Assembly (NCBI GenBank): GCA_016288795.1
Contig: JAEELI010000009.1
Span: 1 to 41,970, forward strand
Direction of reading: 5' to 3'
Origin: Caryophanales bacterium
GTDB lineage: Bacteria; Bacillota_I; Bacilli_A; RF39; UBA660
Length of the DNA stretch: 41,970 nt
Shown piece after piece: positions 7,109-33,067 of this stretch (the first letter of the stretch is position 1; every line of letters begins with the position of its first letter). The translations under genes were made by a program, and so were the position numbers. Below the pieces are notes generated by a model. The model searched no databases, was not told where the DNA came from, and saw nothing but the letters and a program-made list of their open reading frames with translations.

Positions 7109-7135
7109 AACGACATTTTTTGTCGTTCTTTTTTT
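7109..7135 (+). terminator. Rho-independent terminator after the surface protein
   Basis: AACGACA and TGTCGTT form a stem around a T loop, followed by a run of T residues. Confidence 0.8.
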
Positions 7136-7158
7136 ATATAATGATTTTGGTGATAATA

Positions 7159-7905
7159 ATGAAAATATATATAGATTTATTATTCATATTAAATTTTATA
7201 TATGATTTTTTATTGTTGATGACTGTAGATATTACATTAAAGAGAAATATTAATATTAAAAGATTACTATTAGGTAGTTTATTTGGTTCTTTATCAACGT
7301 TCATTATATTACTTAGAATTAATAAATATATATTGTTAATTATGAAAATAATCATTGGATTATCAATGGCCCTAATAACCTATGGGTATAAGAGTTTTAA
7401 ATATTTTCTAGAGAACAATTTATATTTATATATGACAAGTGTTATCCTAGCGGGTTTTCTATATTTTCTAAAAATAGAATTTAGTAATTTGAGTTATTTT
7501 TTAATACTATTAATAAGCCCAATAATATTGTATTTATATATAAAACAAACTAAAGAATTAAAAAAGATAATTAATTATTATAGAAAAGTTATAATAACAT
7601 TTAAAAATAATAAAACTATAGAATTAACAGGATTTATTGATACAGGTAATAACCTAAAAGATTCAGTTACTAATAAATATATAATTATAGTTAATAAAAA
7701 GAGACTTAAGGGAATATATAATATAAGAAGTCCTATGTATGTTCCAATTAAAACCGTTAATAAAACAAGTTTATTAGAATGTATAGGAATAAAAAATATT
7801 ATAGTAGATAATAAAGTTTATACAGGTTATCTATTGGGAATATCAGAAGAGTTTAATAATAAAAACTATGATTGTTTACTTAATTATCATTTAATGGAGG
7901 AATAA
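7159..7905 (+). CDS. spoIIGA: SpoIIGA, sporulation sigma-E factor processing peptidase
   Basis: SpoIIGA is the membrane aspartic protease that activates pro-SigE in the mother cell, at the sporulation septum. The N-terminus MKIYIDLLFILNFIYDFLLL is typical, and several hydrophobic segments fill the first 145 residues. The protease half has the catalytic motif FIDTGNNLKDSVT near residue 165. It ends with DCLLNYHLMEE. At 248 residues it is shorter than the roughly 309 of Bacillus subtilis but has both domains. The start at 7159 follows GGTGAT. Its stop codon abuts the sigE start, so the protease and its substrate are translated together. Confidence 0.93.
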   Translation: MKIYIDLLFILNFIYDFLLLMTVDITLKRNINIKRLLLGSLFGSLSTFIILLRINKYILLIMKIIIGLSMALITYGYKSFKYFLENNLYLYMTSVILAGFLYFLKIEFSNLSYFLILLISPIILYLYIKQTKELKKIINYYRKVIITFKNNKTIELTGFIDTGNNLKDSVTNKYIIIVNKKRLKGIYNIRSPMYVPIKTVNKTSLLECIGIKNIIVDNKVYTGYLLGISEEFNNKNYDCLLNYHLMEE

Positions 7906-8589
7906 ATGTTTAAAAGAATAATCTTATATTTAAAAAAGAAGTATAATGAATGTTTTTTTGTTGGAGCAACTGATAAGTTGCCACCGCCTCTTCCTAAAGA
8001 AAAAGAATTAGAGTATTTAATAAAAGCCAAGAAAGGGGATATAGAAGCAAGAAATATATTAATCGAGCATAATCTTAGATTAGTTGTATTTCTTGCTAAA
8101 AAATATGAAAATACCGGATTTGATATAGAAGATTTAGTATCTATTGGATCCATTGGTTTAATAAAGGGTATAAACACTTATAAAATAGATAAAAACATAA
8201 AGCTTGCTACTTATGCATCAAGATGCATTGCTAACGAAATATTAATGTTTTTAAGAAAGAATAAGAAGAAAAAGGGAGAAGTAAGTTTAGAGGAAACATT
8301 GAATTATGATGCTGAGGGTAATGAACTGCATTTAGAAGATATACTAGGAACTGATATTGATATAGTTCCTCAAGAATTAGAAAATAAAATTAATAAAGAA
8401 ATATTAAATAACGAAATAGATTTATTAGATGAAAGAGAAAAAGAAATAATGACTTTGAGATATGGTTTAAATAATACTTTGGAGTATACCCAAAAAGAAG
8501 TAGCAGAAATGTTAGGAATAAGTCAATCATATATATCAAGAATTGAGAAAAAAGTAGTTAAAAAACTCCAAAACATAATGAAGATATAA
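7906..8589 (+). CDS. sigE: RNA polymerase sporulation sigma factor SigE (pro-form)
   Basis: SigE directs early mother-cell transcription. The 227-residue protein keeps a short pro-sequence (about residues 1-24), then GATDKLPPPLPKEKE, the region cleaved by SpoIIGA. Region 2 includes NLRLVVFLAKKYENTG and KLATYASRCIANEILMFLR. Region 4 ends with GISQSYISRIEKKVVKKL, the -35-recognising helix. It directly follows spoIIGA with no gap. It is a candidate regulator of spoVD, and possibly of the recombinase of the element that splits spoVD. Confidence 0.96.
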   Translation: MFKRIILYLKKKYNECFFVGATDKLPPPLPKEKELEYLIKAKKGDIEARNILIEHNLRLVVFLAKKYENTGFDIEDLVSIGSIGLIKGINTYKIDKNIKLATYASRCIANEILMFLRKNKKKKGEVSLEETLNYDAEGNELHLEDILGTDIDIVPQELENKINKEILNNEIDLLDEREKEIMTLRYGLNNTLEYTQKEVAEMLGISQSYISRIEKKVVKKLQNIMKI

Positions 8590-11355: not shown

Positions 11356-11829
11356 ATGAAAAAGAAAATTATTTTTGGGAGTATATTATTTTTAATAATT
11401 GATATAATTACTAAAATTATAATTGATAATTGCCTAGAATTAGCCAAATCTATCACAATTATTAAGAATTTCTTTTATATTACTAAAGTATATAATTATG
11501 GCGCTTCTTGGAATATTCTATCGGGCTATAATATTCTTTTAATAATTATTACATTTTTGGTTTTATTTATATTAATTAATTATCAAAAAAAATTTAAAGA
11601 TAATATTCGAAATATTATAGCTTTTAGTATCCTTTATGGAGGAATAATAGGCAATTTATTAAACAGAATATTTCTTGGCTATGTAATAGACTTTTTTGAT
11701 TTTTATATATTTAAATATGATTATCCAATATTTAATGTTGCCGACATAGGAATAGTTATTGGTATATTTCTAGTAGTTATTGCTATTATTAAAAAGGAAG
11801 ATAATAATGAAATTGGTAGTTCAAAATGA
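11356..11829 (+). CDS. lspA: Lipoprotein signal peptidase (signal peptidase II)
   Basis: LspA cleaves the signal peptide from diacylated prolipoproteins in the membrane. The 157-residue protein has four hydrophobic segments. The conserved boxes are IDIITKIIIDN, the YNYGASWNI motif, GGIIGNLLNRIFLGYVIDFFDF, and FNVADIGIVIG. The Asp in VIDFFD and the Asp in NVADIGI are the catalytic pair. Its last 23 bases overlap the start of rluD, so translation is probably coupled. lspA followed by rluD (ylyB) is conserved in Bacillus. Confidence 0.93.
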   Translation: MKKKIIFGSILFLIIDIITKIIIDNCLELAKSITIIKNFFYITKVYNYGASWNILSGYNILLIIITFLVLFILINYQKKFKDNIRNIIAFSILYGGIIGNLLNRIFLGYVIDFFDFYIFKYDYPIFNVADIGIVIGIFLVVIAIIKKEDNNEIGSSK

Positions 11830-12688
11830 AAATATTAGAATAGATAAATATATTAGTGATGTAACTGATTATAGTAGAGAATTAGTTACCAAGATGATTA
11901 AAGATAAGTTTATTTTACTTAATGGTTCAATAGTTAAACCAAGTCACTTAGTTAATGTTGGGGATGAAATAACTATAGATGAATCATATATTAAAGAAAC
12001 TTCAATTGAACCTCAGGAAATACCTTTAGACATTCTTTATGAAGATGAAGATATAATGGTTATTAATAAACCAAGTGGTTTAGTAGTTCACCCCGGGAAT
12101 GGAAATAAGAATTGGACTTTAGTCAATGGTTTAAAATACCACACAGAAGAGTTATCTGATTTAGGGGGAGAAGAAAGAGTAGGAATTGTTCATCGTTTAG
12201 ATAAAGATACCTCAGGACTTATGCTTGTGGCTAAATCAAATAAAGCTCACGAAATTCTTTCTGAAGATTTTAAATATAAAAGAGTTTATCGAGAGTATTA
12301 TGCTTTATTATGTGGAGTATTTCCATCAAATACGGCGTTTATTGATGCTCCGATTGGTAGAGATAAGAATAATTTTAATAAAATGACTGTTCGTGGTGAT
12401 GGTAAAAGTGCTAGAACAAATCTAAAGGTTTTAAAAAGATATGAAGATTATACATTAGTCAGTTTAGTTCTAGAAACAGGAAGAACTCATCAAATAAGAG
12501 TTCATATGGCCTACATTGGTTATCCAATATATAATGATCCAATTTATCAAGGGAAACCTACTACAGATTTTGGTCAATTTCTTCATTCAAAGAAAATTAG
12601 ATTTATTCATCCAATTACCAAAGAACAAATGACTTTTGAATGTGATTTACCTAAATATTTTCAAGATTTCATTGACAAATTAAATTAG
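11807..12688 (+). CDS. rluD: 23S rRNA pseudouridine synthase, RluD family
   Basis: This enzyme converts specific uridines of large-subunit rRNA to pseudouridine. An S4 RNA-binding domain covers about residues 1-70 (RIDKYISDVTDYSRELV, FILLNGSIVKPSHLV). The catalytic domain has the RluA/RluD signature GIVHRLDKDTSGLMLVAK, whose HRLD aspartate is the nucleophile. ETGRTHQIRVHMAYIGYPI is also present. The start at 11807 follows AAGGAAG inside lspA. At 293 residues it is a normal length. It corresponds to ylyB of Bacillus. Confidence 0.94.
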   Translation: MKLVVQNENIRIDKYISDVTDYSRELVTKMIKDKFILLNGSIVKPSHLVNVGDEITIDESYIKETSIEPQEIPLDILYEDEDIMVINKPSGLVVHPGNGNKNWTLVNGLKYHTEELSDLGGEERVGIVHRLDKDTSGLMLVAKSNKAHEILSEDFKYKRVYREYYALLCGVFPSNTAFIDAPIGRDKNNFNKMTVRGDGKSARTNLKVLKRYEDYTLVSLVLETGRTHQIRVHMAYIGYPIYNDPIYQGKPTTDFGQFLHSKKIRFIHPITKEQMTFECDLPKYFQDFIDKLN

Positions 12689-20770: not shown

Positions 20771-20784
20771 TAATGGGAGGTTTT

Positions 20785-22236
20785 ATGTTAAAAAAAATAA
20801 TATATATTTTATTTATTATTTTTTTAAATATTAATATTTGTTATGCTTCAACCCTAAAAAGCAGTGCAACACCATATTATGCCAAGATAAAAGATAGTAG
20901 AAATAATACTGAAGTAGTAGTGCAAATCAAAAAAATTGAAGATGAAAATGGTGATGCTGTGTTTAATCTTAATTATGATTTTTATGATACAAATGGTGAT
21001 TTTCTTAAATCAAATTCTTTCGATAGAAGTGTATGTTCAAAAAATAATTTTGATTTTAATTCTTTTATGACAAGAGTTTACTATGGTTATAATGTTTCTC
21101 CAAGTCCACTAAAGTATTATCTAACCCAAGTAATTGTTTGGAATATGTCTGATTATGTTAAAGCATGGACTTCAGATGAAGATGGCAATATAATTACAAC
21201 TTATCAAAATATTCAAAATGATATAACTTCTCAAGCAGCATTTCATTATTTATCTTCTAGTTTTTTTAATCAAACTTATAATAGAAATGTTTTTGATGAG
21301 GACAAATGGACATATTCTTCTAATGCGATTATTTTAGATAATCCTCAAACTGATGCATTTTCTTTCCAAAATAATAATAATGATTTATCCATCAAAGCTC
21401 TAAAACCAGGTTATTATGAATTAGTTTTTGAAAAGATATATGATCATGATATTCATTGCTTTCGCACTGGAAATAATATTTATTGGCAAAGCCTTAAAGG
21501 TCCAGAGGACTTAGTTAAGAATATAACATACAATGTTTCGGGTTATAAATTTCAAATTAAAGAAAATTTATTAGGTATAAATAGTAGATTTGGAGATGCG
21601 AAAATAAATAATTCTCAGTATGAAATTTATTATAATAATGATTTAGAAAATACAATAAGTTCTACCCAAGAAATTTATTTAAAACATGATTCTCAATATT
21701 TAGTTAAAGATATTTCTGAGACAATTGGATATAATCATGTTGATGATTATATCTTTGCCATGGCAAATGAGGATTATATTCTAGAAATAAATAGAGAAGT
21801 TATAAGTAAAAATGTTAGTTTAGATATAAAAGATAATAATAAATACTATATATATTTGAAAAGTTCAAATGAATTATATGAAGAAATAAATAGTAATATA
21901 GATTTAATAACATTGCCATATGGCATATACTATATTAGTGATCAAAAAAAATACTATAAAGAATTAAATGTTTTGGACAGTGTAGATGAAGTATTAGTAA
22001 TCGATAATACTCCTCAAGATATTATAGAAAACAAAAGTGATGATTATCCAGAAGAGGTTATAGAAATAAAAGAACTCATTCCAAATATTGAAGAAGTAGT
22101 CAACGAAGAAGATGAAGAAATAATAGTAGTTAATCCCAAAACAGGAGATAAAATTAATTATTATCTAATAATCTTTTTAATAAGTTTAATAGGATTAACA
22201 TCAATATTAATATTAAAATATATAAATAATAGATAA
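20785..22236 (+). CDS. Thioester-domain (TED) surface adhesin with NPKTG sorting signal
   Basis: The predicted product is a wall-anchored adhesin. A signal peptide (LKKIIYILFIIFLNINICYA) opens the protein. The next 130 residues resemble a thioester domain: a Cys at SVCSKNN and, further on, YYLTQVIVWN, equivalent to the TQxAIW motif whose Gln forms a thioester with that Cys. An acidic linker precedes VVNPKTGDK, a hydrophobic helix and a basic tail, the layout of a sortase substrate. The start at 20785 follows GGGAGG; the ATG at 20773 overlaps that site. No sortase is present in the window. The gene lies directly upstream of spoVD. Confidence 0.8.
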   Translation: MLKKIIYILFIIFLNINICYASTLKSSATPYYAKIKDSRNNTEVVVQIKKIEDENGDAVFNLNYDFYDTNGDFLKSNSFDRSVCSKNNFDFNSFMTRVYYGYNVSPSPLKYYLTQVIVWNMSDYVKAWTSDEDGNIITTYQNIQNDITSQAAFHYLSSSFFNQTYNRNVFDEDKWTYSSNAIILDNPQTDAFSFQNNNNDLSIKALKPGYYELVFEKIYDHDIHCFRTGNNIYWQSLKGPEDLVKNITYNVSGYKFQIKENLLGINSRFGDAKINNSQYEIYYNNDLENTISSTQEIYLKHDSQYLVKDISETIGYNHVDDYIFAMANEDYILEINREVISKNVSLDIKDNNKYYIYLKSSNELYEEINSNIDLITLPYGIYYISDQKKYYKELNVLDSVDEVLVIDNTPQDIIENKSDDYPEEVIEIKELIPNIEEVVNEEDEEIIVVNPKTGDKINYYLIIFLISLIGLTSILILKYINNR

Positions 22237-22241
22237 GAGCT

Positions 22242-22279
22242 AAAAAACATATTATTTAATGGTGAATAATATGTTTTTT
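22242..22279 (+). promoter_or_regulatory. Perfect 15-bp hairpin over the spoVD ribosome site and start
   Basis: AAAAAACATATTATT (22242-22256) pairs perfectly with AATAATATGTTTTTT (22265-22279) around the loop TAATGGTG. The loop holds most of the GGTGA ribosome site. The right arm contains the spoVD ATG (22271) and ends in six T residues. It may be a terminator of the adhesin gene, a switch on spoVD translation, or both. Confidence 0.6.
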
Positions 22280-23191
22280 AATGATATTCATACTAGAGTT
22301 AGATTTATTATTTTAATAGTTATTATAATCTTTGTAATTATTATTGGTAAAGTGTTTTATATTCAAGTGCTAAACTATAGAAAATTATCCCAAATGGCTG
22401 AGGATTTGTGGAGTAGAAAGATGACTATCAATGCTCCAAGGGGAGATATTTTAGATAGAAATGGTAAAGTATTAGCAACAAGCATAAGCACTACGACAAT
22501 ATATGTCGTGCCTAATCAAATAAAAAATAAAGAAAAAGTATCTCAAGATATATCTAGAATACTTAATTGTGATTATCAAGATGTTTATAAATATGTTTCT
22601 AAAAATAGTAGTATGGAAATAATTCGTTCAGGTATGGATTTGGATTATGATAAAGCATCGAAAATAGAAAGTCTTAATTATGACGGAGTATATCTAGTAG
22701 TTGATACAAAAAGATATTATCCATATGGAGAAACCCTAGCGCATATTATAGGTTTTGTTGGAAAAGATAACCAGGGATTATCTGGATTAGAATTAACATA
22801 TGATAAATATTTAACAGGAATAAATGGAGAATTAAAATATTACAGTGATGGCAAAGGTAATAAATTAGAAATACCAGATAGTTATGTCGCTCCCAGTCCT
22901 GGCATGAACTTAAAATTGACAATCGATATAGATATTTTGAGTTCAATAGATAATGAATTAAATAATGCTATGGCTAAGTATAATAGCGAATCAGCTTGGG
23001 CTATTGCCATGAACCCCAAAACTGGAGAAATACTTGCTATGGATAGCAAACCATCTTTTGAGCCCAGTAATTATCAAAAATATTCTGAAGATATCATAAA
23101 TAGAAATCTACCAATATGGATGACTTATGAACCTGGGTCTACATTTAAGAACGTAGTGTCGCTTTTGGAACGTTATTTATTGAACTATTAA
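22271..23191 (+). CDS. spoVD: SpoVD, N-terminal half, interrupted by the integrated element
   Basis: SpoVD is the class B penicillin-binding protein that crosslinks cortex peptidoglycan in Bacillus. This half has the N-terminal membrane anchor, the dimerisation region starting INAPRGDILDRNGKVLA, and the beginning of the transpeptidase domain up to LPIWMTYEPGSTFK (Ser290, Lys293). Right after that Lys, 14 foreign residues follow and the frame stops. The SxN and KTG motifs are 6.7 kb away in the second half. The start at 22271 follows GGTGA. As it stands it cannot be a working enzyme. Joining codon 293 to the second half restores a continuous SpoVD. Confidence 0.93.
   Translation: MFFNDIHTRVRFIILIVIIIFVIIIGKVFYIQVLNYRKLSQMAEDLWSRKMTINAPRGDILDRNGKVLATSISTTTIYVVPNQIKNKEKVSQDISRILNCDYQDVYKYVSKNSSMEIIRSGMDLDYDKASKIESLNYDGVYLVVDTKRYYPYGETLAHIIGFVGKDNQGLSGLELTYDKYLTGINGELKYYSDGKGNKLEIPDSYVAPSPGMNLKLTIDIDILSSIDNELNNAMAKYNSESAWAIAMNPKTGEILAMDSKPSFEPSNYQKYSEDIINRNLPIWMTYEPGSTFKNVVSLLERYLLNY
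23139..23150 (+). repeat. Left attachment core (attL)
   Basis: CTACATTTAAGA, identical to 29839-29850. It covers the last bases of the codon for Ser290 and the codons Thr-Phe-Lys of the STFK motif of spoVD. To the left is spoVD sequence; to the right is element sequence beginning ACGTAG. Confidence 0.88.
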
Positions 23192-23204
23192 GGTTTAATA
23201 AATG

Positions 23205-23234
23205 TTGAACTTAAAAGTTTTAGTGTGATATAAT
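23205..23234 (+). promoter_or_regulatory. Element cargo promoter
   Basis: The -35 box TTGAAC (23205-23210) and -10 box TATAAT (23229-23234, with an upstream TGA extension) are 18 bp apart. It lies 55 bp inside the element and would drive the sugar cassette regardless of spoVD transcription. Confidence 0.65.
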
Positions 23235-23251
23235 TGAATTGGTGTAAAAAG

Positions 23252-24868
23252 ATGGCTAAAGATAAAAGTATAACAATAAATAACAAGTATTTAATAGCTC
23301 TAAGAATTATTCTGGCTATATCTTGTTCTTTTTTTACATTATTGATATCTAATAGGTTTTTTCCTATGCATATTTTTATTGGTTGTCTTCTTTCTTTTCT
23401 TATTGCTATTATATTATTTTTCAAAATAAAAATAGATAGTTCTATTAGTATTAAAGAATTTATTATTTTTTTAGTTATCTCTCTTTTTTTTATTAGTAAT
23501 ATTTTGCCATTTGTAGATCAAAATGGTGTTTTGTTTCAAGAAATATTTAACAATCTTATTCATATTAATGTCCCAGCAAATCTAGTTGGCAAAATTATTG
23601 GTATTATGGCGCTTCCATTTACTATTTTTATAGTTAATTGGTTTCATAAATATTTATATAATAATATAATTCTTTTCTTTAAAAAGTTAACAAAAGTTGA
23701 GAAGATATACCTTTATATAATTCTTGTTTTTTCTATCATTTCTTCAATTGTGATTATATATTTCACTACAGCATTTTCGCGTCCACAATATTATTATGAT
23801 ATTATTTATACTAGCGATACTGGTGCCTTACTTATGAATAATGATTACATGAATATTAGTTATGCCGAAAACGATATTAGGCAACCTCTATTTGGGATAT
23901 TTGCAGCGCCTTTTGGTTTTGCTGCAAAATCAATTAGTAATTTATGTTTCTTTTTAAGAACCGGTTATGAATATGAAACAATTTTAACAATTTTTCAGTT
24001 TCTTTTGCTTGCAATTTCTACAATATTATTATCTAGGCTTTTAAATATCGAGGAAAATAGAAAAAAATATTTTTATGGATTAATATCTTGTTCATTTCCA
24101 TATTTATTGTTTTCACTTTTGCTTGAACAATATGTCCTTTGCTTATTTTACTTGATTCTAGCTATTTATTGTTATCATAATAATCCGGATAGAGTAAATT
24201 ATACATATATTGGTGCAGTGGGAACGTTAATAACATCTGGAATAATATTTCCATATATTGTAAAAAACAAAAATATTAAACAATGGTTTAAATCTGTATT
24301 TAAATGTTTATCGGCCTTTTTAGGAGTTGTTATTGTTGGAGGTCAGTTTCCTCAATTACTAACAGTAGCAAAAGACATTAAAAGGCTATTAGTGGGTGGT
24401 GCCATAGGTTTGCCATTTATAAACAAACTTTATCAGTATTTTGCGTTTGTTAAAGGGCTATTTTTACCTAGCCCAGGAGAAATTGTTTGGAATGGTTATA
24501 TTTCTTCATATCGTTTATTACCAATTAATTCTTTAGAATGGTTAGGAGTATTAATAATTATACTTTGTATAATAAGTTTTATTTTAAATTATAAAAATAA
24601 AATGGCAAAACTGCTAATGTTTTGGGTTTTCTTCTCAAGTGTAATATTACTTTTTGTGGGATGGGGAAGTTTAGAGAATGGTTTAGTATTATACAGCTTA
24701 TACTTTGCTTGGGCTTTTTATTCATTAATATATTTACTAATTGAAAGAGTATGCAAGAATAGAAAAGTATTTAATGTAGCCATGATATTATTAATAGGGG
24801 TAATTGTAATAGCTAATTTAGTTGAATTTATTAATATTTTAAAGTTTGCAATTAGTTATTATCATTAA
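23252..24868 (+). CDS. Polytopic membrane protein, GT-C-like glycosyltransferase
   Basis: The 538-residue protein has ten or more hydrophobic segments. The first large outside loop contains YTSDTGALLMNNDYMN and AENDIRQPLFGIFAAPF. An acidic motif in that loop followed by RQP is typical of GT-C glycosyltransferases, which use polyprenyl-phosphate sugars. The start at 23252 follows GGTG; an upstream TTG start is less likely. It is first in the cargo operon, before a phosphoribosyltransferase-like gene, which suggests it uses a sugar donor made by that pathway. The exact family is not recognised. Confidence 0.65.
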   Translation: MAKDKSITINNKYLIALRIILAISCSFFTLLISNRFFPMHIFIGCLLSFLIAIILFFKIKIDSSISIKEFIIFLVISLFFISNILPFVDQNGVLFQEIFNNLIHINVPANLVGKIIGIMALPFTIFIVNWFHKYLYNNIILFFKKLTKVEKIYLYIILVFSIISSIVIIYFTTAFSRPQYYYDIIYTSDTGALLMNNDYMNISYAENDIRQPLFGIFAAPFGFAAKSISNLCFFLRTGYEYETILTIFQFLLLAISTILLSRLLNIEENRKKYFYGLISCSFPYLLFSLLLEQYVLCLFYLILAIYCYHNNPDRVNYTYIGAVGTLITSGIIFPYIVKNKNIKQWFKSVFKCLSAFLGVVIVGGQFPQLLTVAKDIKRLLVGGAIGLPFINKLYQYFAFVKGLFLPSPGEIVWNGYISSYRLLPINSLEWLGVLIIILCIISFILNYKNKMAKLLMFWVFFSSVILLFVGWGSLENGLVLYSLYFAWAFYSLIYLLIERVCKNRKVFNVAMILLIGVIVIANLVEFINILKFAISYYH

Positions 24869-24890
24869 TAGTTTGGGAGGTAATTAAATA

Positions 24891-25781
24891 ATGAGACAAC
24901 ATAAATTATTTCAATCTTTAATAACATATTTAAATTTGATTAGAGTAAAACAATGGATAAAAAACTTTTTGGTATTTATTCCTGTTATAAGCGCCAAATT
25001 ATTAAATGCTAATAATTGTGTTTTAGTAATAATTGGCTTTTTTTCTTTTTCCTTTGCTTCATCTTTTATTTACATTATAAATGATTTAAGGGATATTGAA
25101 AAAGATAGATTAAATGCAAGTAAGAAAAAAAGGCCTCTGCCTAGTGGAAAAATAAACAAAAAACAAGCAATAATTATTTCAATAATAATGATTATTATTT
25201 GTGTTTTACTAAATGTTTGTATTTATAATTTATCTAATTCAGCAAATATATTATTATCATTTTTGATAATTGCATCATATATTATTATTAATTTGTTATA
25301 TTCTTTTGGTTTAAAAAATGTAGCTATATTAGATGTAGCAATTATAGCTGCAGGATTTATATTACGAGTTTATTATGGCGCTTTAATTCTAAATATTGAA
25401 GTATCACCTTGGTTATTTTTGACCATTATGAATGCTTCTTTGTTCCTTAGCTTAGGAAAAAGAAAAAAGGAAATATTATGTAGTAAAGATTCGAGAACTG
25501 TTTTAAAAGAATATAATGAGCAGTTTTTAGATAAATTTCAATATGTAAGTCTTGGTTTAACATTAGTTTTTTATTCACTATGGGCAATAGAACAAAATGA
25601 AAAAAGTTTGGTTTTTACTATTCCTATAGTAACAATTATATTTATGAGATATTCTCTTGTTATGGAATATAATAACGAGGGAGATCCTACTACCATATTG
25701 TATACAGATAAGATTTTACTATTATTATGTATTATTTATGGAATTATAATGTTTGTTTTGTTAGGAGGAGGTTTAAATTAA
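24891..25781 (+). CDS. UbiA-family prenyltransferase, decaprenyl-phosphate phosphoribosyltransferase-like
   Basis: This protein resembles DPPR synthase, which transfers phosphoribose to a polyprenyl phosphate, the first step to ribose or arabinose donors of cell-wall glycans. Its UbiA motif IINDLRDIEKDRLNASKKKR holds the NDxxD metal ligands, followed by RPLPSG. LRVYYGALILN, LGKRKKE and the late GDPTTILYTDK match the DPPR-synthase subgroup. There are about eight membrane segments in 296 residues. Its stop codon overlaps the start of the next gene, so they are translated together. Confidence 0.82.
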   Translation: MRQHKLFQSLITYLNLIRVKQWIKNFLVFIPVISAKLLNANNCVLVIIGFFSFSFASSFIYIINDLRDIEKDRLNASKKKRPLPSGKINKKQAIIISIIMIIICVLLNVCIYNLSNSANILLSFLIIASYIIINLLYSFGLKNVAILDVAIIAAGFILRVYYGALILNIEVSPWLFLTIMNASLFLSLGKRKKEILCSKDSRTVLKEYNEQFLDKFQYVSLGLTLVFYSLWAIEQNEKSLVFTIPIVTIIFMRYSLVMEYNNEGDPTTILYTDKILLLLCIIYGIIMFVLLGGGLN

Positions 25782-26745
25782 TATATATGATTTTGATGGA
25801 ACAATATATGATGGCGACTCTACAATTGACTTTTTTAAATATGCAATTAATAAGAATAAAAAATGCTTATTAATGTTACCAAAGTTTATTATTGTGTCAG
25901 CTCTTTATTTAATAAAAATATATAAAAAAGAAAAATTAAAGTCTGTTTTTCTGAGTTTTATTAAATATTTTCCTGATTCTAAAGAATTGGCAAATGATTT
26001 TTGGGAATTCAAACAATATAAACTTAAGGATTTTTATTTAAAACAGAGAAGAAGTAGTGATATAGTTGTAAGCGCTTCGCCAGAATTGTTATTGCAACCA
26101 GTTGCTAAAAAATACAAATTCAAATTAATTGGCACTAAAATAGATTCCAAATCAGGGGCTATAATTGGAAAGAATTGTCAAGGATTGGAAAAGGTTAAGA
26201 GATTAAAAGATAGTAAAATTACTAAATGTAAGAATTATTATACTGATTCATTAAGTGACCTTTCTCTAAAAGAGATAGCAGATAATTTTTATATTGTGAA
26301 GGGGGATATAATCACTCCTCTAGATGAATATAAAGAAAATCCAATAAAAAAAACATTTTTAAATAGGGATTTCATAACTTTCTTATTTATCGGGGGAATT
26401 AATGTTCTAAATGGTGTTTGGATATCATTGGTATATTCAATATTTACAAAAAGTGCTATAGTAGCATTTATATATGGCTTTTTAACTAGTTTAATCATTT
26501 CATACATTTTGAATTCACTATTTAATTTTAAAGAGAGAATATGTGCATCTAAGTTTTTGAAATTTGTTGTTAGCAATATTCCTAATTTTGTTATTCAGTT
26601 TTTATGTGTATTTGTATTAATAAACAAATTAAATATCAATAAAGCATTAGCTTACTTTTTGGCAGCGCTAATCGCAGTTCCAATTACTTTTGCTTTAGTA
26701 AGAATCAAAGTATTCAAAGTCGCTAATGATAAGAATAAATCATAA
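25777..26745 (+). CDS. HAD phosphatase-GtrA fusion with ATT start codon
   Basis: The first ATG in this frame (25873) cuts off the catalytic motif. The frame extends to an ATT at 25777, placed 5 nt after GGAGGAGG, giving INIYDFDGTIYDGDSTIDFF, with DFDGT the HAD nucleophile motif. VVSASPELLLQ is motif II and TDSLSDLSL the acid motif. From about residue 220, a GtrA domain with four hydrophobic helices follows (FLFIGGINVLNGVW, FKERICASKFLKFV). The phosphatase could dephosphorylate the DPPR product; GtrA proteins help flip polyprenyl-linked sugars. The ATT start overlaps the previous stop codon. Confidence 0.78.
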   Translation: MNIYDFDGTIYDGDSTIDFFKYAINKNKKCLLMLPKFIIVSALYLIKIYKKEKLKSVFLSFIKYFPDSKELANDFWEFKQYKLKDFYLKQRRSSDIVVSASPELLLQPVAKKYKFKLIGTKIDSKSGAIIGKNCQGLEKVKRLKDSKITKCKNYYTDSLSDLSLKEIADNFYIVKGDIITPLDEYKENPIKKTFLNRDFITFLFIGGINVLNGVWISLVYSIFTKSAIVAFIYGFLTSLIISYILNSLFNFKERICASKFLKFVVSNIPNFVIQFLCVFVLINKLNINKALAYFLAALIAVPITFALVRIKVFKVANDKNKS

Positions 26746-26813
26746 TTTTTTTGATGTTTTTGGGTATTAGATAGAGTTGTATTTTTAATAATATTTCTCT
26801 TATCTATAAGAGT

Positions 26814-26845
26814 AGCAAGCATGTTAAAAAAACTTGCTTTCTTTA
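26814..26845 (+). terminator. Probable terminator of the cargo operon
   Basis: AGCAAG and CTTGCT form a stem with a 13-base loop, followed by a T-rich stretch. The rest of the gap 26746-26979 holds a possible TTGAAA promoter and GGAGGTG ribosome site for the next gene. Confidence 0.5.
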
Positions 26846-26979
26846 TGTGAAAATTTATCGTTTTTTGTTGAAAACAATTATCTTTTTTATTATTAATAAT
26901 ATGTAAAAATAGGTAACGATAAAGAAAGTAAAAAGCCGGTCGTTTTTACAAGAAGTATTGAAGTAAAGGAGGTGTAGAG

Positions 26980-27476
26980 ATGCAAGACAATAATGGAAAC
27001 AAAAAGTTATTAATTATTGCAGTTTTATTATTATTAATCGCTGTAACTTTCAGCACTTACGCTATTTATAAGTCAACTGCTACTTCAAGTGATTCAATTA
27101 GAGCTGCTAAGTGGATTGTTAAAGCTAATAATACTGATATCGTAGCAAATAATACATTTACTTTAGGAAATCTTGATTGTGGTAATGCACAATTGGAACT
27201 GATAGAACTGGAACAATTGCTTACTTCTTAGAAGGCCTTCTAGGAGCATCTAATGAAGATCGTTTACGTGATTATGAAATGACATATTTCTTTGGATTAA
27301 CTAATCGTTCAAGATTCCATAATAATCTAAGCACATCTAATATTAATCCAAGATTCTATGCAATGTATAAGTCATATCCTAGTGTTTCTGATATAGAAGA
27401 TTTCTATTTCAATAATTACCCAGAAAGTGACGATGCGACTTTATTATCAGCATTTAGAGCTGAAATGATTCAATAA
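26980..27476 (+). pseudogene. Decayed chimera: surface-protein N-terminus joined to tyrosine phosphatase C-terminus
   Basis: The first 83 codons (26980-27231) encode a signal-anchored start, KKLLIIAVLLLLIAVTFS, then TYAIYKSTATSSDSIRAAKW, like SipW/TasA-type exported proteins. The frame then closes. From about 27186 a second frame reads CTIGTDRTGTIAYFLEGLLG, the P-loop of a Cys-dependent tyrosine phosphatase (CxxGxDRTG), and continues NEDRLRDYEMTYFFGLTNR to a stop at 27476. The phosphatase N-terminus, including the usual His before Cys, is absent. This looks like a deletion junction joining two genes out of frame. A good ribosome site (AAAGGAGGTG) remains. Confidence 0.65.
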
Positions 27477-27505
27477 AAAGAACTGTATTTACAGTTCTTT
27501 TTTTA
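27476..27505 (+). terminator. Rho-independent terminator after the chimera
   Basis: AGAACTGTA and TACAGTTCT flank a short loop, followed by seven T residues. A second hairpin (AACCTCG and CGAGGTT, 27517-27535) serves the opposite-strand gene. Confidence 0.8.
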
Positions 27506-27533
27506 TAACATAATAAAACCTCGTAATTCGAGG

Positions 27534-27849
27534 TTATTTATTTTTAATAAATATATTATCTTTTCCATTATTGTCTGTAATAATTAAATTATTCTTTTCA
27601 AATCGATATTCAAAAGTTTTAGCTTGATCAGATCCTTTATATAGAATAGTCAACGATTTACCATCATCTTCATAAGTGCAATCGAGTCTTGCAACTTTCA
27701 TTTCATATGAACATGTTTTATCTTCATTAAAAAAAAATAATACTCACTTTTTTCATCTAACGATTTCCATCTACCAATAATACTTTTTTGGCATCCTGTA
27801 GTTAATAATATTAATAATATAAGCATTATTCCTAAAAAATATTTTTCAT
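27534..27849 (-). pseudogene. Small lipoprotein gene with two frameshifts
   Basis: Read on the minus strand from the ATG at 27849, a frameshift in a six-T run occurs within the signal peptide. The next frame gives MLILLILLTTGCQKSIIGRWK, with a lipobox LTTGC. A second shift in a run of A residues (plus strand, near 27730) moves to a frame reading NEDKTCSYEMKVARLDCTYE and ending KDNIFIKNK. Repairing both runs by one base would give a small extracellular lipoprotein of about 100 residues. Either the gene is dead or the assembly miscounted two homopolymers. No function can be named. Confidence 0.55.
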
Positions 27850-27904
27850 ATATTCACCTATATTAATTTTATCTAAAAAGTGCAAAAAAGACAATTCTTT
27901 TATA

Positions 27905-27932
27905 GTCTATTTTTTTCTGCTGAGCATAAATT
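27905..27932 (+). promoter_or_regulatory. Candidate SigE-like promoter of the recombinase unit
   Basis: GTCTATT (27905-27911) and CATAAATT (27925-27932) are 13 bp apart. The SigE consensus is roughly KMATATT, about 14 bp, CATACAAT. Each box is close but imperfect. No convincing SigA promoter is seen before the small gene at 27967. In an AT-rich region chance matches are common, so this is weak evidence. Confidence 0.3.
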
Positions 27933-27966
27933 TATATAGTTAATATAGATTATTGAAAGGATAATT

Positions 27967-28098
27967 ATGTTTAATAAAACTATGGAATTAAAAATAAAAA
28001 TGATTATTAATAATAGTCTTTATAAAAAGAATATCATTGATGAGCAAACATATTATATAGTTAATGATAAACTATTAAAAAAACTGAAGACTTTATAG
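27967..28098 (+). CDS. 43-residue protein before the recombinase, possible excision helper
   Basis: GAAAGGAT precedes the ATG at 27967. The product is small and basic, with MIINNSLYKKNIIDEQTYYI followed by VNDKLLKKLKTL. The pattern 'helix, xxLYxxxIIxxxxY, helix' resembles short SHOCT-like proteins often found beside serine recombinases in Firmicutes. The gene ends 13 bp before the recombinase start and is surely co-transcribed. Directionality factors of serine integrases are also small (SprB of SPbeta is about 58 residues), so a role in promoting excision is possible but not shown by sequence. Confidence 0.55.
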   Translation: MFNKTMELKIKMIINNSLYKKNIIDEQTYYIVNDKLLKKLKTL

Positions 28099-28111
28099 AA
28101 CTGGAGACAAT

Positions 28112-29830
28112 ATGACATATGATGATATTGCCCAAGCTATTAGCCGTGGCGAAAAGATTTATAATCTACCACTTAGAGTTACTTATTATTGTAGAGTATC
28201 AACCGATAGTGACACTCAGCTTAATTCATTAGATAATCAATTAGATTATTATGAAAAATATATTAAGTCAAAATCATCTTGGACTCTTGTAAATGGATAC
28301 ATTGAAAATGGTGTCACTGGAGTTCGAGTCGATAATAGAAATGTTTTTAAGAAAATGATTAATGACGCCAAATTAAACAAATTTGATTTGATTGTTACTA
28401 AAGAAGTAAGTAGATTTGCTAGGGATTTAGAAGATAGTATTCATTATATTAGAGAGCTAAAAGAATGTAATGTTGGAATATTTTTTGAAAATCAAAATTT
28501 AAATACTTTTGATCCTAATTCTGAATTAATACTAAATATTATGTTTAATATAGCCCAAGATGAAAGCAAAAAGCTTTCATCAAGAGTTAAATTTGGCCAT
28601 AGACAAGCAATGGAAAAAGGACATGTCTTGGGTTCCTCTAATATTATTGGTTATCGAAAAGATAAGTGTAAATTAGTCGTTGTTCCGGAGGAAGCTAAGT
28701 TTATTAAAAAAGTATTTGAATTATATACAACAAATGAATATGGTCTTTATAAATTGGCAAATGTATTAGCTTCCTTAGGCTACTATAACAAAAAAGGAGA
28801 AATATATGATAAAGGAACTTTAAAGAGAATAATAACTAATCCTAAATATAAGGGATTTTATCGAGGTCATACTTATGAAATAATGGATTATCGAACTAAA
28901 AGAAGAAAAAGAATATTAGAAAATAATCAAATAATATATAGATGTTCTAATGATATAATACCACCAATCATAACAGAGGAACTATGGGATAAAGCTAATC
29001 TTATATTAAATAATAGAAAAGAAAGTTACAATAGTTCTAATCATTGGTCAGGAGGACTTAAGTATCCCTTTAGTTCTAAAGTCTATTGTGGTGAACATAA
29101 TACTAGTTTTCAAAGAACGCATGGTAAATCTAAGAAAAATAGACCAACATGGTGTTGTTCTTTGTATTTGGCGCATAGATTAAAAGCATGTTCATCACCA
29201 TTAATTAGCGAAGCTGATTTAAATAGTATTATAAAATATATTATGAACTCTATTATTCCCAATGATAATAGTATTATTGATGATATGATAGATATATATA
29301 AAGATATTAATGTTGATAATAACTATGATGAAGAAATAGATAATATTAATCAAAACATAGAAAGAATTGAAAGAAAAAAATCTTTAGCAATTGATTTAGT
29401 GTTAAATGGGGATTTAAAAAAAGATGATTTAAAGGTTCAATTTCTTAATTATGAAAAAGAATTGGAATCATTAATTAGTAGCAAAGAAAAATTAATAAAA
29501 GAAAAGAATAAAACCAAACCATATATTAAAGATTTATCTAAATATATTAAAGAAGAAATAAATAATGGAATGTTAGATGAGTTTGTTAGAAGTTTTGTTG
29601 ATGAAATAATTGTTTCTAAAATAAATAATGATCGTAATAATATTTTTTTATCTATATATTTAAATTATAAAGAAAATAATCAAATTAGGATAAAAGGTTC
29701 AAGACATATAGAAGGTCCTTTAGATAATGAAATTCTTTGTTTAGAAAATCAAAAGTTTGAAAGTGTAGATAAATTAAGAGCTGATAGAACAAGAAACAAA
29801 TATACTTATAATGTTTATATTATGAGTTAA
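28112..29830 (+). CDS. Large serine recombinase of the spoVD element
   Basis: This site-specific recombinase cuts DNA through a serine. The catalytic domain covers about residues 20-150: YYCRVSTDSDTQ with Ser30 as nucleophile, VTKEVSRFARD, and the helix leading to KLSSRVKFGHRQAMEKG. The recombinase domain follows (VLGSSNIIGYRKD, KRIITNPKYKGFYRGH). A zinc-ribbon-like part has YCGEH, WCCS and KACSS. A coiled coil spans about residues 405-470. The protein is 572 residues, in the range of SpoIVCA and SprA. GGAGA precedes the ATG. The stop lies 8 bp before the right core, the usual place for an integrase gene. Confidence 0.95.
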   Translation: MTYDDIAQAISRGEKIYNLPLRVTYYCRVSTDSDTQLNSLDNQLDYYEKYIKSKSSWTLVNGYIENGVTGVRVDNRNVFKKMINDAKLNKFDLIVTKEVSRFARDLEDSIHYIRELKECNVGIFFENQNLNTFDPNSELILNIMFNIAQDESKKLSSRVKFGHRQAMEKGHVLGSSNIIGYRKDKCKLVVVPEEAKFIKKVFELYTTNEYGLYKLANVLASLGYYNKKGEIYDKGTLKRIITNPKYKGFYRGHTYEIMDYRTKRRKRILENNQIIYRCSNDIIPPIITEELWDKANLILNNRKESYNSSNHWSGGLKYPFSSKVYCGEHNTSFQRTHGKSKKNRPTWCCSLYLAHRLKACSSPLISEADLNSIIKYIMNSIIPNDNSIIDDMIDIYKDINVDNNYDEEIDNINQNIERIERKKSLAIDLVLNGDLKKDDLKVQFLNYEKELESLISSKEKLIKEKNKTKPYIKDLSKYIKEEINNGMLDEFVRSFVDEIIVSKINNDRNNIFLSIYLNYKENNQIRIKGSRHIEGPLDNEILCLENQKFESVDKLRADRTRNKYTYNVYIMS

Positions 29831-29831
29831 T

Positions 29832-30872
29832 ATGGTAGCTACATTTAAGATAATAACTTTAGCAGCCTCCATTAATGAAAAAACAGTTGATTTATTTAAT
29901 GATACATTCGTTGATAATGGAAGTATTAAAGTAGATGGGGCTACACTACATTGCTGGAAGCATGGAGGCCACGGTTTAGAAACATACTTAGAAGTAGTTG
30001 AAAACTCTTGTAACCCCGGTTTTGTTTCTTTAGGAAATAAACTAGGAACATCTAAACTGATGAAATATATTAGAGATTTTGGCTTTGGAGAAAAGACAAA
30101 AATTGATTTAAATGGTGAAGAAAATGGCATTTTATTTAAGGAAGAGAAAATGGGACCAGTTGAACTTGCTACAACTTCTTTTGGCCAAGGTATAAGTGTT
30201 ACGCCAATTCAGCAAATTACTGCAGTATCGGCAGCGATTAATGGAGGCTTTTTAAATAAACCTTATATAGTGTCAGGTATTATTGATGGAGTTAATTCTA
30301 CAACCATATATCAAAAAGAAAAAGAAACTAAAAGACAAGTGATTAGTGAAGAAGCCTCGGCTCTAGTTAGATATGCTTTAGAAAGCGTTGTAGCTAAGGG
30401 AACAGGAAGGAATGCCTATATTGAGAACTATCGCGTTGGGGGTAAGACTGGAACTGCTCAAAAAGTATCACAAGGAAAATATATGATAGGTAATTATATT
30501 TTATCTTTTATTGGTTTTTTACCAGCAAATGATCCTAAAGTGATAGTATATGTCGCGGTTAATAATCCCAAAGGAGTTACTCAGTATGGGGGAACAGTTT
30601 CCGCACCAATAGCTAGAAGTATTTTGCTTTCAAGTATTCAGATTTTAGGAATAAATGAAGAAAAAGATGGAATATTAAAAGAATATACATATTTAGACAC
30701 AAAATACATGGTTTTACCTAATGTTATGGGAATGAATAAAAAAGATGCTACTAAAGCATTAAAAGATTTTAAAGTTCAGTATAGTGGGTCAGGTGATAAA
30801 GTTATATATATGACTCCTAAGGCTAATTCTTTTCAAAAAGTTGGCGGGACAATAACTTTGATGTTAAATTAA
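29832..30872 (+). CDS. spoVD: SpoVD, C-terminal half (transpeptidase and PASTA domain)
   Basis: This half carries the rest of the transpeptidase domain: NSCN (SxN, residues 59-61) and GGKTGTAQK (KTG, 205-207), plus TLHCWKHGGHG and SFGQGISVTPIQQ typical of SpoVD. One PASTA domain ends the protein (VLPNVMGMNKKDATKAL), as in SpoVD; FtsI/PBP2B of Bacillus has two. The first residues are MVATFK, so the element supplies a start codon and turns STFK into ATFK, without the serine. There is no ribosome site, only possible coupling to the recombinase stop one base before. It lacks a membrane anchor and should be inactive. Confidence 0.93.
   Translation: MVATFKIITLAASINEKTVDLFNDTFVDNGSIKVDGATLHCWKHGGHGLETYLEVVENSCNPGFVSLGNKLGTSKLMKYIRDFGFGEKTKIDLNGEENGILFKEEKMGPVELATTSFGQGISVTPIQQITAVSAAINGGFLNKPYIVSGIIDGVNSTTIYQKEKETKRQVISEEASALVRYALESVVAKGTGRNAYIENYRVGGKTGTAQKVSQGKYMIGNYILSFIGFLPANDPKVIVYVAVNNPKGVTQYGGTVSAPIARSILLSSIQILGINEEKDGILKEYTYLDTKYMVLPNVMGMNKKDATKALKDFKVQYSGSGDKVIYMTPKANSFQKVGGTITLMLN
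29839..29850 (+). repeat. Right attachment core (attR)
   Basis: CTACATTTAAGA, the second copy of the core. Element sequence (ending TATGGTAG) lies to the left and spoVD sequence (TAATAACTTTAGC) to the right. Joining element ends gives an attP with a CTAC...GTAG dyad across the core. Confidence 0.88.
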
Positions 30873-31935: not shown

Positions 31936-31964
31936 AAAGCAAGAATAATTATTCTTGCTTTTTT
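31936..31964 (+). terminator. Rho-independent terminator after mraY
   Basis: AAAGCAAGAATAA and TTATTCTTGCTTT form a long perfect stem, followed by T residues. spoVE begins only 15 bp past it. Confidence 0.85.
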
Positions 31965-31978
31965 CATATATATTTATT

Positions 31979-33067
31979 ATGAAAAAACAGTTTGATAGAC
32001 AATTATTTGGGATAATAATAATTTTATCAATTTTTGGAATAATAATGATTTATTCTTCCAGTTTTATCTGGGCTAATTATAAATATAATGATCCATATAG
32101 ATATGTGAAAATGCAAAGCATATTCTTTTTAATTGGAATATTATTGATGTTAATAACTTCTAAAATAAACTATAAGTTCTATTATAAATACGCTAATAAT
32201 GGCCTATTACTAGGGATAATTTTATTAATATTAGTATTAATTCCTGGAATAGGTTCAGTTCGAAATGGTAGTAGAAGTTGGTTTGGAATAGGCCCTTTAG
32301 GCATTCAACCTTCTGAGTTTGTAAAAATAGCTTTAATAATTTATACATCTAAATATTTATCTAATAATCAAAAAAGTATTAAGAATATATATAAAGGTTT
32401 AATGCCACTACTAATAATAGTTTTTTTTGTATTTTTATTGATAATGCTAGAACCAGATTTTGGTAGTGCCATGGTTTTACTAATAACGATTATATTATTA
32501 ATATTTACTAGTGGAGTTCAATTATCTTTCTTTGTTAAAGGTGGAGTATTGGGATTACTAGGTATAGTAGGAATAATTATCATGGCACCATATAGAATGA
32601 AAAGAATTGTCAGTTTTTTAAATCCTTGGAGTGATCCCTTAGGGAGTGGATATCAAATATTACAAAGTTTATATGCAATAGGTCCAGGAGGCCTTTTAGG
32701 CCATGGGCTTTTAAAATCAAGACAAAAGTATTTTTATCTACCAGAGCCTCAGACAGATTTCATTTTTTCAATTATTAGTGAAGAATTAGGATTTTTAGGC
32801 GTTCTTCTAGTAGCATTTGCATTTATATTCATTTTTTATAAATGTTCATCTATTTCATTAAAATGCAACGATTTATTTCCAAAATACTTAGCTTTCGGCT
32901 TGGCTCTGGGAATAATTGTCCAATCGACATTAAATTTAATGGTAGTTGTAGGACTTATTCCAGTAACTGGGGTAACTTTACCATTCATAAGCTATGGGGG
33001 AAGTAGTTTGCTTGTTAGTATGATAAGTATTGGGATTGTTCTGGGTATATCTAGAAATAATTATTGA
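31979..33067 (+). CDS. spoVE: SEDS glycosyltransferase SpoVE/FtsW family
   Basis: SEDS proteins polymerise glycan strands together with a class B PBP; SpoVE pairs with SpoVD in the cortex. The 362-residue protein has about ten membrane segments. LGIQPSEFVKIALI, MLEPDFGSAM and PEPQTDFIFSIISEELGF are SEDS signatures, and FISYGGSSLL is near the end. Its length and place after spoVD-mraY favour SpoVE, but FtsW cannot be excluded and one protein may do both jobs. The start at 31979 has no clear ribosome site and lies 15 bp after the mraY terminator, so its expression may depend on a separate, unrecognised promoter. Confidence 0.87.
   Translation: MKKQFDRQLFGIIIILSIFGIIMIYSSSFIWANYKYNDPYRYVKMQSIFFLIGILLMLITSKINYKFYYKYANNGLLLGIILLILVLIPGIGSVRNGSRSWFGIGPLGIQPSEFVKIALIIYTSKYLSNNQKSIKNIYKGLMPLLIIVFFVFLLIMLEPDFGSAMVLLITIILLIFTSGVQLSFFVKGGVLGLLGIVGIIIMAPYRMKRIVSFLNPWSDPLGSGYQILQSLYAIGPGGLLGHGLLKSRQKYFYLPEPQTDFIFSIISEELGFLGVLLVAFAFIFIFYKCSSISLKCNDLFPKYLAFGLALGIIVQSTLNLMVVVGLIPVTGVTLPFISYGGSSLLVSMISIGIVLGISRNNY

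Follow-up and report, generated by a model that had tools for sequence, protein, structure and literature searches.

The window, meaning the whole 41,970-bp stretch of contig JAEELI010000009.1 that was analysed, contains spoVD in two parts, separated by an element that carries a site-specific recombinase gene and has short direct repeats at both ends. The features discussed here, all on the forward (+) strand, are as follows.

7120–8589, +: spoIIGA and sigE, the latter encoding the mother-cell sigma factor
22214–22273, +: spoVD leader, conserved in the genus, with a SigE-like −10 (CATATTAT) as part of a putative promoter
22259–23150, +: spoVD 5′ part, approximately residues 1–292 (anchor, dimerisation domain, SxxK serine)
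23139–23150, +: left core CTACATTTAAGA, in attL, at the codons of the SxxK motif
23234–24868, +: cargo, predicted multi-pass membrane protein, no Pfam family
24891–25781, +: cargo, UbiA-family protein, decaprenyl-phosphate phosphoribosyltransferase-like
25780–26745, +: cargo, HAD phosphatase fused to a GtrA-type membrane domain
26980–27476, +: cargo, two short ORFs, apparently one broken small exported protein, as inferred from the sequence
27967–28098, +: 43-aa ORF directly upstream of the recombinase gene, candidate partner or directionality factor
28112–29830, +: large serine recombinase (LSR) of the site-I clade (PF00239, PF07508, PF13408)
29839–29850, +: right core CTACATTTAAGA, in attR
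29851–30872, +: spoVD 3′ part, rest of the transpeptidase domain and PASTA
31955–33067, +: spoVE/ftsW-like SEDS gene

The window contains exactly two copies of the core CTACATTTAAGA, at 23139–23150 and 29839–29850, against 0.05 copies expected. An earlier, sequence-only reading had noticed two 12-bp cores inside the spoVD halves and an LSR gene near the right one; the core coordinates were verified with no third copy in the window, and the LSR gene at 28112–29830 ends 8 bp before the right core. Taken as one core plus the interior, the element that splits the window's spoVD measures 6,700 bp, with a GC content of 24.9% versus 27.0% for the window. The crossover falls within the codons of the SxxK motif (EPGSTFK). 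A search of the host's own genome for the unsplit 84-bp empty site found no further copy, only the two split ends.

The reading frame of the 5′ part continues into element sequence as far as 23191, and that of the right half opens at 29832 with VATFK and lacks the SxxK serine. Because the serine stays with the left part and the right part starts with VATFK, neither half could serve as the enzyme. Precise excision had been predicted to yield a 633-residue SpoVD, and joining 23150 to 29851 in silico does give an in-frame ORF with no internal stop, 638 aa long or, counted from the ATG at 22274, 633 aa. The rejoined product scores 704 bits against the spoVD model TIGR02214, above the curated cut-off of 688; the separate halves, at 276 and 419 bits, both fall below it. 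In-frame restoration alone is no evidence of developmental use, since it follows automatically from any precise site-specific insertion. Upstream, an inverted repeat conserved in the genus (AAACATATTATT/AATAATATGTTT) spans the ribosome-binding site and start of spoVD.

The setting is that of a spore former. Genes for SpoIIGA, SigE, SigG, SpoIVB and SpoVE lie in the window, those for Spo0A and SpoIVA are present in the host genome, and the product of the spoVE/ftsW-like SEDS gene is the probable partner of SpoVD. In B. subtilis, SpoVD is a mother-cell protein. According to one B. subtilis study, the cortex requires its transpeptidase activity (PMC3906833). The skin-like design proposed at the outset, an LSR element splitting a mother-cell cortex gene, thus lies in a genome with sporulation genes. 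Another contig of the host genome encodes an FtsI-like protein of 708 aa, and this vegetative paralogue is unsplit wherever it was seen in the genus. A second LSR of the host genome (G000:C10) has no obvious split sporulation gene adjoining it. The named relatives are uncultured Bacilli, from the guts of rabbit, ruminant, chicken and others according to the hosts given in sequence records; the order, RF39, includes Ca. Aphodocola and Ca. Faecimonas (PMC8035907).

Gene content of the element

The LSR has Resolvase, Recombinase and zinc ribbon domains, all scoring over their cut-offs, and an invariant RVST motif with the catalytic serine. The 43-aa ORF upstream of it matched no Pfam family, and ORFs of 40–80 aa with a shared pattern (LYKKNIIDExTF at site I) precede most LSRs of the group. 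Since known systems employ small directionality factors such as SprB and GirX, this small ORF is the best candidate for such a role here.

The window's cargo consists of glycan or surface-type genes; elements elsewhere carry Fic, AbiE, an ABC transporter or very long surface proteins. Such variable cargo fits mobile islands rather than prophages, and no phage structural or replication genes were recognised in the elements inspected.

No convincing mother-cell promoter was found upstream of the window's LSR gene, and the upstream regions of the LSR genes that were compared share no common consensus. Besides spoVD, the leader TATTAT[AT]2-4[AG]TGGTGA precedes four related LSR operons of site I; the 3.2 Mb of sequence searched contains a single further match. 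Together with the SigE-like motif, this shared leader is suggestive, and too little for a claim of co-regulation. A phage origin of the elements was also considered and set aside, as a scan of IMG/VR returned only LSRs of at most 46% identity.

Recurrence in relatives

Elements interrupt spoVD at three motifs: SxxK (site I), SxN (site II, NSCN|PGF) and TPIQQ (site III). Among 38 genomes of the genus, 20 have a spoVD of full length, one of which (in G004) contains two stops, and in at least 12 the gene breaks off at a defined split site. In a broader sample of 145 genomes, approximately one per genus and classified by open-frame length, a SpoVD C-terminus was present in 116, of which 81 are intact, 33 apparently split (contig ends may contribute a few false splits) and two ambiguous. 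Split copies thus occur in approximately 28% of spoVD-bearing genera, mostly at site II or III. Comparison with relatives, suggested earlier as a search for intact spoVD, therefore returned intact and split versions alike.

Several genes are split more than once. G036 has elements at sites I and II, and G087 has elements at II and III on one contig, its pieces rejoining to 633 aa. In G273 all three sites are occupied, and the four spoVD pieces again rejoin to 633 aa. Within the genus, in silico deletion gave full-length SpoVD in 10 genomes (11 excisions), and all 34 exon pairs found on a single contig are in register. Elements are as small as 2.7 kb and carry one LSR each, whose gene precedes the right part on the same strand in nearly all cases; the site-II LSR of G287 is reversed. 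The scale goes beyond the sequence-only reading: there are three split positions, as many as three elements in a gene and many genera involved, and dacB is also hit.

Identity over 12 bp between cores is not general, in-register cores in relatives being approximately 4–15 bp. A longest-common-substring search was unproductive outside the window because the cores of relatives are too short; in-register comparison replaced it for defining them.

These genomes are metagenome bins, and contigs break at the split sites in a few of them (G003, G016, G024), as might be seen if unrelated contigs had been joined in assembly. Such an artefact is hardly credible, given that independent assemblies, covering many genera and hosts, show the same three sites, the same LSR clades and junctions that are in register. 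It is also very improbable that each half is translated on its own and the two products combine into an active enzyme, with the DNA left as it is. In most site-I elements the right half does have its own ATG (ATGGTAG before the core), as that explanation would want, but this half has its SxxK serine replaced and no membrane anchor, and some middle pieces of doubly split genes comprise only approximately 59 codons.

Site specificity and a second target

The best-matching LSR type agrees with the site in 91 of 91 exon–LSR neighbours. In a tree of 60 LSRs, the site-I, site-II and site-III groups are each set off by a branch with full support, and a fourth group, found at dacB, by one with 96% support. 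Site-III LSRs are 78–85% identical across hosts whose SpoVD is 46–64% identical to the query, and L149 and L150 have an almost identical site-I LSR in diverged hosts; given such similarity, the elements also move horizontally. Split and intact species are intermixed on the spoVD tree, which, with LSR transfer, points to frequent insertion and loss, some copies possibly being recent.

The dacB-associated LSRs form a sister clade and precede the gene of an N-terminally truncated D,D-carboxypeptidase, whose Pfam match begins at the SxxK region. The N-terminal half lies upstream on the same contig at L186, L174 and L170, elsewhere within the L167 genome, and on other contigs in Faecimonas and Aphodocola genomes. 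The split carboxypeptidase gene is dacB, another gene for the cortex, judged by its neighbours: a pseudouridine synthase and two proteins of spmA/spmB size, most of them with a Gate domain. In the host genome of the window, dacB is intact and the gene order is the same; one Aphodocola genome combines a site-III split of spoVD with a split dacB. Not every target is a sporulation gene, since another LSR of the group adjoins a truncated transporter gene.

Selection and retention of split spoVD

Attention had been drawn at the outset to stop codons or deletions in the spoVD halves of relatives; all of the 153 spoVD pieces examined are free of internal stops. A shared split gene is found in two sister pairs. 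For the site-II pair G035/G036, exon dN is 0.009 and dS 0.276, with an LSR dS of 0.165; for the site-III pair L197/L222, the values are 0.027, 0.375 and 0.415. The resulting dN/dS of 0.03–0.07 indicates strong purifying selection and is limited to these close pairs, as pairwise YN00 and maximum-likelihood estimates were saturated or unusable for distant ones. These values suggest that spoVD stayed under purifying selection while split in both pairs, independent insertion in both members of a pair being less likely. G035 and G036 differ in cargo and have kept the LSR end. An empty site occurs in the near relative G030; between G016 and G030, 114 codons differ synonymously and 11 non-synonymously.

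Retention of spoIVA was compared across the broader sample. The gene is present in 33 of 33 genomes with split spoVD, in approximately 76 of the 81 with an intact copy and in 13 of the 29 without a SpoVD C-terminus (split versus spoVD-less, Fisher p = 2.5e-7, with genomes taken as independent of relatedness). In G014, G046 and G131, spoIVA is kept and spoVD is absent.

One reading of the split is that a selfish island simply inactivated spoVD in hosts that no longer needed it. Some family members have indeed lost spoVD wholly, and related orders show repeated loss of sporulation (PMC10868615). As the pieces show no stops and purifying selection, and spoIVA accompanies every split copy, dead insertions are not the explanation we adopt; with two cortex genes hit besides, we regard simple inactivation as improbable.

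A further alternative retains excision and dispenses with mother-cell timing. Islands would leave at a low rate, randomly or under stress, in any cell; only island-free lineages would sporulate, and turnover would keep spoVD. The mixture of split and intact species on the spoVD tree and the evident transfer of elements (L149/L150) are as this alternative would predict, and in C. botulinum the yin element is excised in part of the culture at every time point (PMC10747680). On the other hand, the low dN/dS and matching LSR divergence of the two sister pairs suggest long persistence of the split, genomes with two or three elements would require several rare excisions in one cell, and spoIVA is never absent from split genomes. 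On balance, random excision appears rather unlikely.

Proposed mechanism and precedents

The explanation we favour, and consider reasonably likely, is that an LSR-integrated island in spoVD is excised during sporulation, most likely in the mother cell, restoring cortex synthesis. The element's own LSR would have integrated the island at an attB formed by the DNA encoding the active-site SxxK motif of SpoVD. In growing cells, spoVD would be split, as it is in the assembled genome, and inactive. In sporulating cells, the LSR would recombine attL and attR, probably aided by the small protein of the upstream ORF as partner or directionality factor; the island would leave as a circle, spoVD would be rejoined and cortex could form. 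Since mother-cell DNA is not passed on, excision in that cell would leave the island in the germ line. Split spoVD is thus probably functional only after its DNA has been respliced in sporulating cells. We infer the occurrence, timing and cell type of excision from the choice of targets and from precedent, namely sigK, spsM, spoVFB, spoVR, gerE and yabG (PMC4191935, PMC5595907, PMC10747680).

The closest parallel is skin in sigK (SpoIVCA in B. subtilis; CD1231 plus a directionality factor in C. difficile), likewise a serine recombinase element in a mother-cell gene. There too, the recombinase gene lies inside the element and excision restores the frame, here in silico. The skin target is a sigma factor gene, whereas here it is a cortex enzyme gene, with three sites, up to three elements per gene and elements down to 2.7 kb, known here from assembled sequences. 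SPbeta in spsM (SprA/SprB) shares the LSR, short core, small accessory protein gene and mother-cell target, but is an active prophage whose genome is far larger; phage genes were not recognised in the spoVD elements inspected. The gin element in gerE of B. cereus ATCC10987 (GirC/GirX) is similarly an island of non-phage type that interrupts a mother-cell gene and varies in cargo. It measures 28.6 kb, has three recombinases and is known from one strain, unlike the spoVD elements with one LSR each in many genera. The same principle, with other targets, underlies yin in yabG (C. botulinum), vfbin in spoVFB and vrin in spoVR; in contrast to spoVD, the accessible parts of the reports on these describe single targets and no stacking in one gene. 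A similar habit outside sporulation, as one report describes it, is that of helper-embedded PICIs, in which an integrase clade repeatedly targets genes needed only late; unlike the spoVD elements, these are phage satellites in prophage genes (PMC10111431).

This kind of system is therefore already known (sigK–skin, SPbeta–spsM, gerE–gin, yabG–yin); what is new is the targets, the stacking in one gene, the spread and the minimal size. The sequence-only reading did not recall spoVD as a described target of such an element, and our search of the open-access literature likewise found no description of it in that role. To our knowledge, each rearrangement of a sporulation gene recognised so far is an isolated case from a cultured species of Bacillus or Clostridium.

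Here, islands dock repeatedly in one cortex gene across many uncultured gut genera, and a second gene of the same pathway is also hit. A broader proposal is that a group of RF39 serine integrases has come to specialise in codons for the catalytic motifs of cortex enzymes made in the mother cell, using three sites in spoVD and one in dacB as safe harbours. Every mother cell that sporulates would then have to remove all of the independent inserts in a gene, up to three, with a dedicated recombinase for each; we give this proposal about an even chance. The LSR clades, site-specific and with conserved attachment sites, also form a natural integrase set for engineering. RF39 genomes have been reported that lack spoVD yet are predicted to sporulate, and split genes, easily missed by annotation, may bear on such reports of absence (PMC10868615). 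If excision takes place as proposed, the 2.7-kb elements would be among the simplest systems for studying its control, and spore formation in these bacteria would routinely include programmed DNA splicing.

The SxxK codons of dacB, a cortex carboxypeptidase gene, are the insertion point of a large serine recombinase (LSR) clade sister to the spoVD LSRs. The fetched contig stretches (L numbers) bearing dacB or a further carboxypeptidase paralogue are as follows.

L186:1899-2075 and 11556-12491, split dacB pieces
L174:6893-7051 and 11589-12506, split dacB pieces
L170:6892-7050 and 11589-12506, split dacB pieces
L171 and L173, with L343 and L344, split dacB pieces
L346:1591-4500, unsplit dacB-spmA-spmB-rluB, window's genome
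L350:4503-6945, minus strand, LSR immediately 5' of the C-terminal portion of a different carboxypeptidase paralogue

For the L350 paralogue, the fetched stretch contained no recognisable left half. A further LSR clade of the same family adjoins a truncated transporter substrate-binding protein gene (L352:6913-9312; L353:4906-8135), which is a target outside sporulation.

Small spoVD elements at the SxxK (site I) or TPIQQ (site III) codons carry the following cargo.

L155:11761-12525, Fic-family protein, site I
L220:1585-3039, AbiEi/AbiEii toxin-antitoxin pair, site III

Three genomes (G014, G046 and G131) retain spoIVA and lack a SpoVD match. In G003 (L046, L047 and L048), two contigs bear spoVD pieces that overlap, one spanning residues 290-413 and the other 347-632, perhaps reflecting two strains with differing element sets in one bin.

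Immediately 5' of spoVD lies one gene.

Window 20773-22236, exported protein without a Pfam family, whose C-terminus bears an NPKTG-like motif and a membrane helix

An inverted repeat, AAACATATTATT/AATAATATGTTT, spans the spoVD RBS and start codon (window 22214-22273) and is kept genus-wide. The leader TATTAT..[AG]TGGTGA, with one further match in 3.2 Mb, is common to spoVD and related site-I LSR operons (L044, L045, L120 and L152); these may be under shared control.
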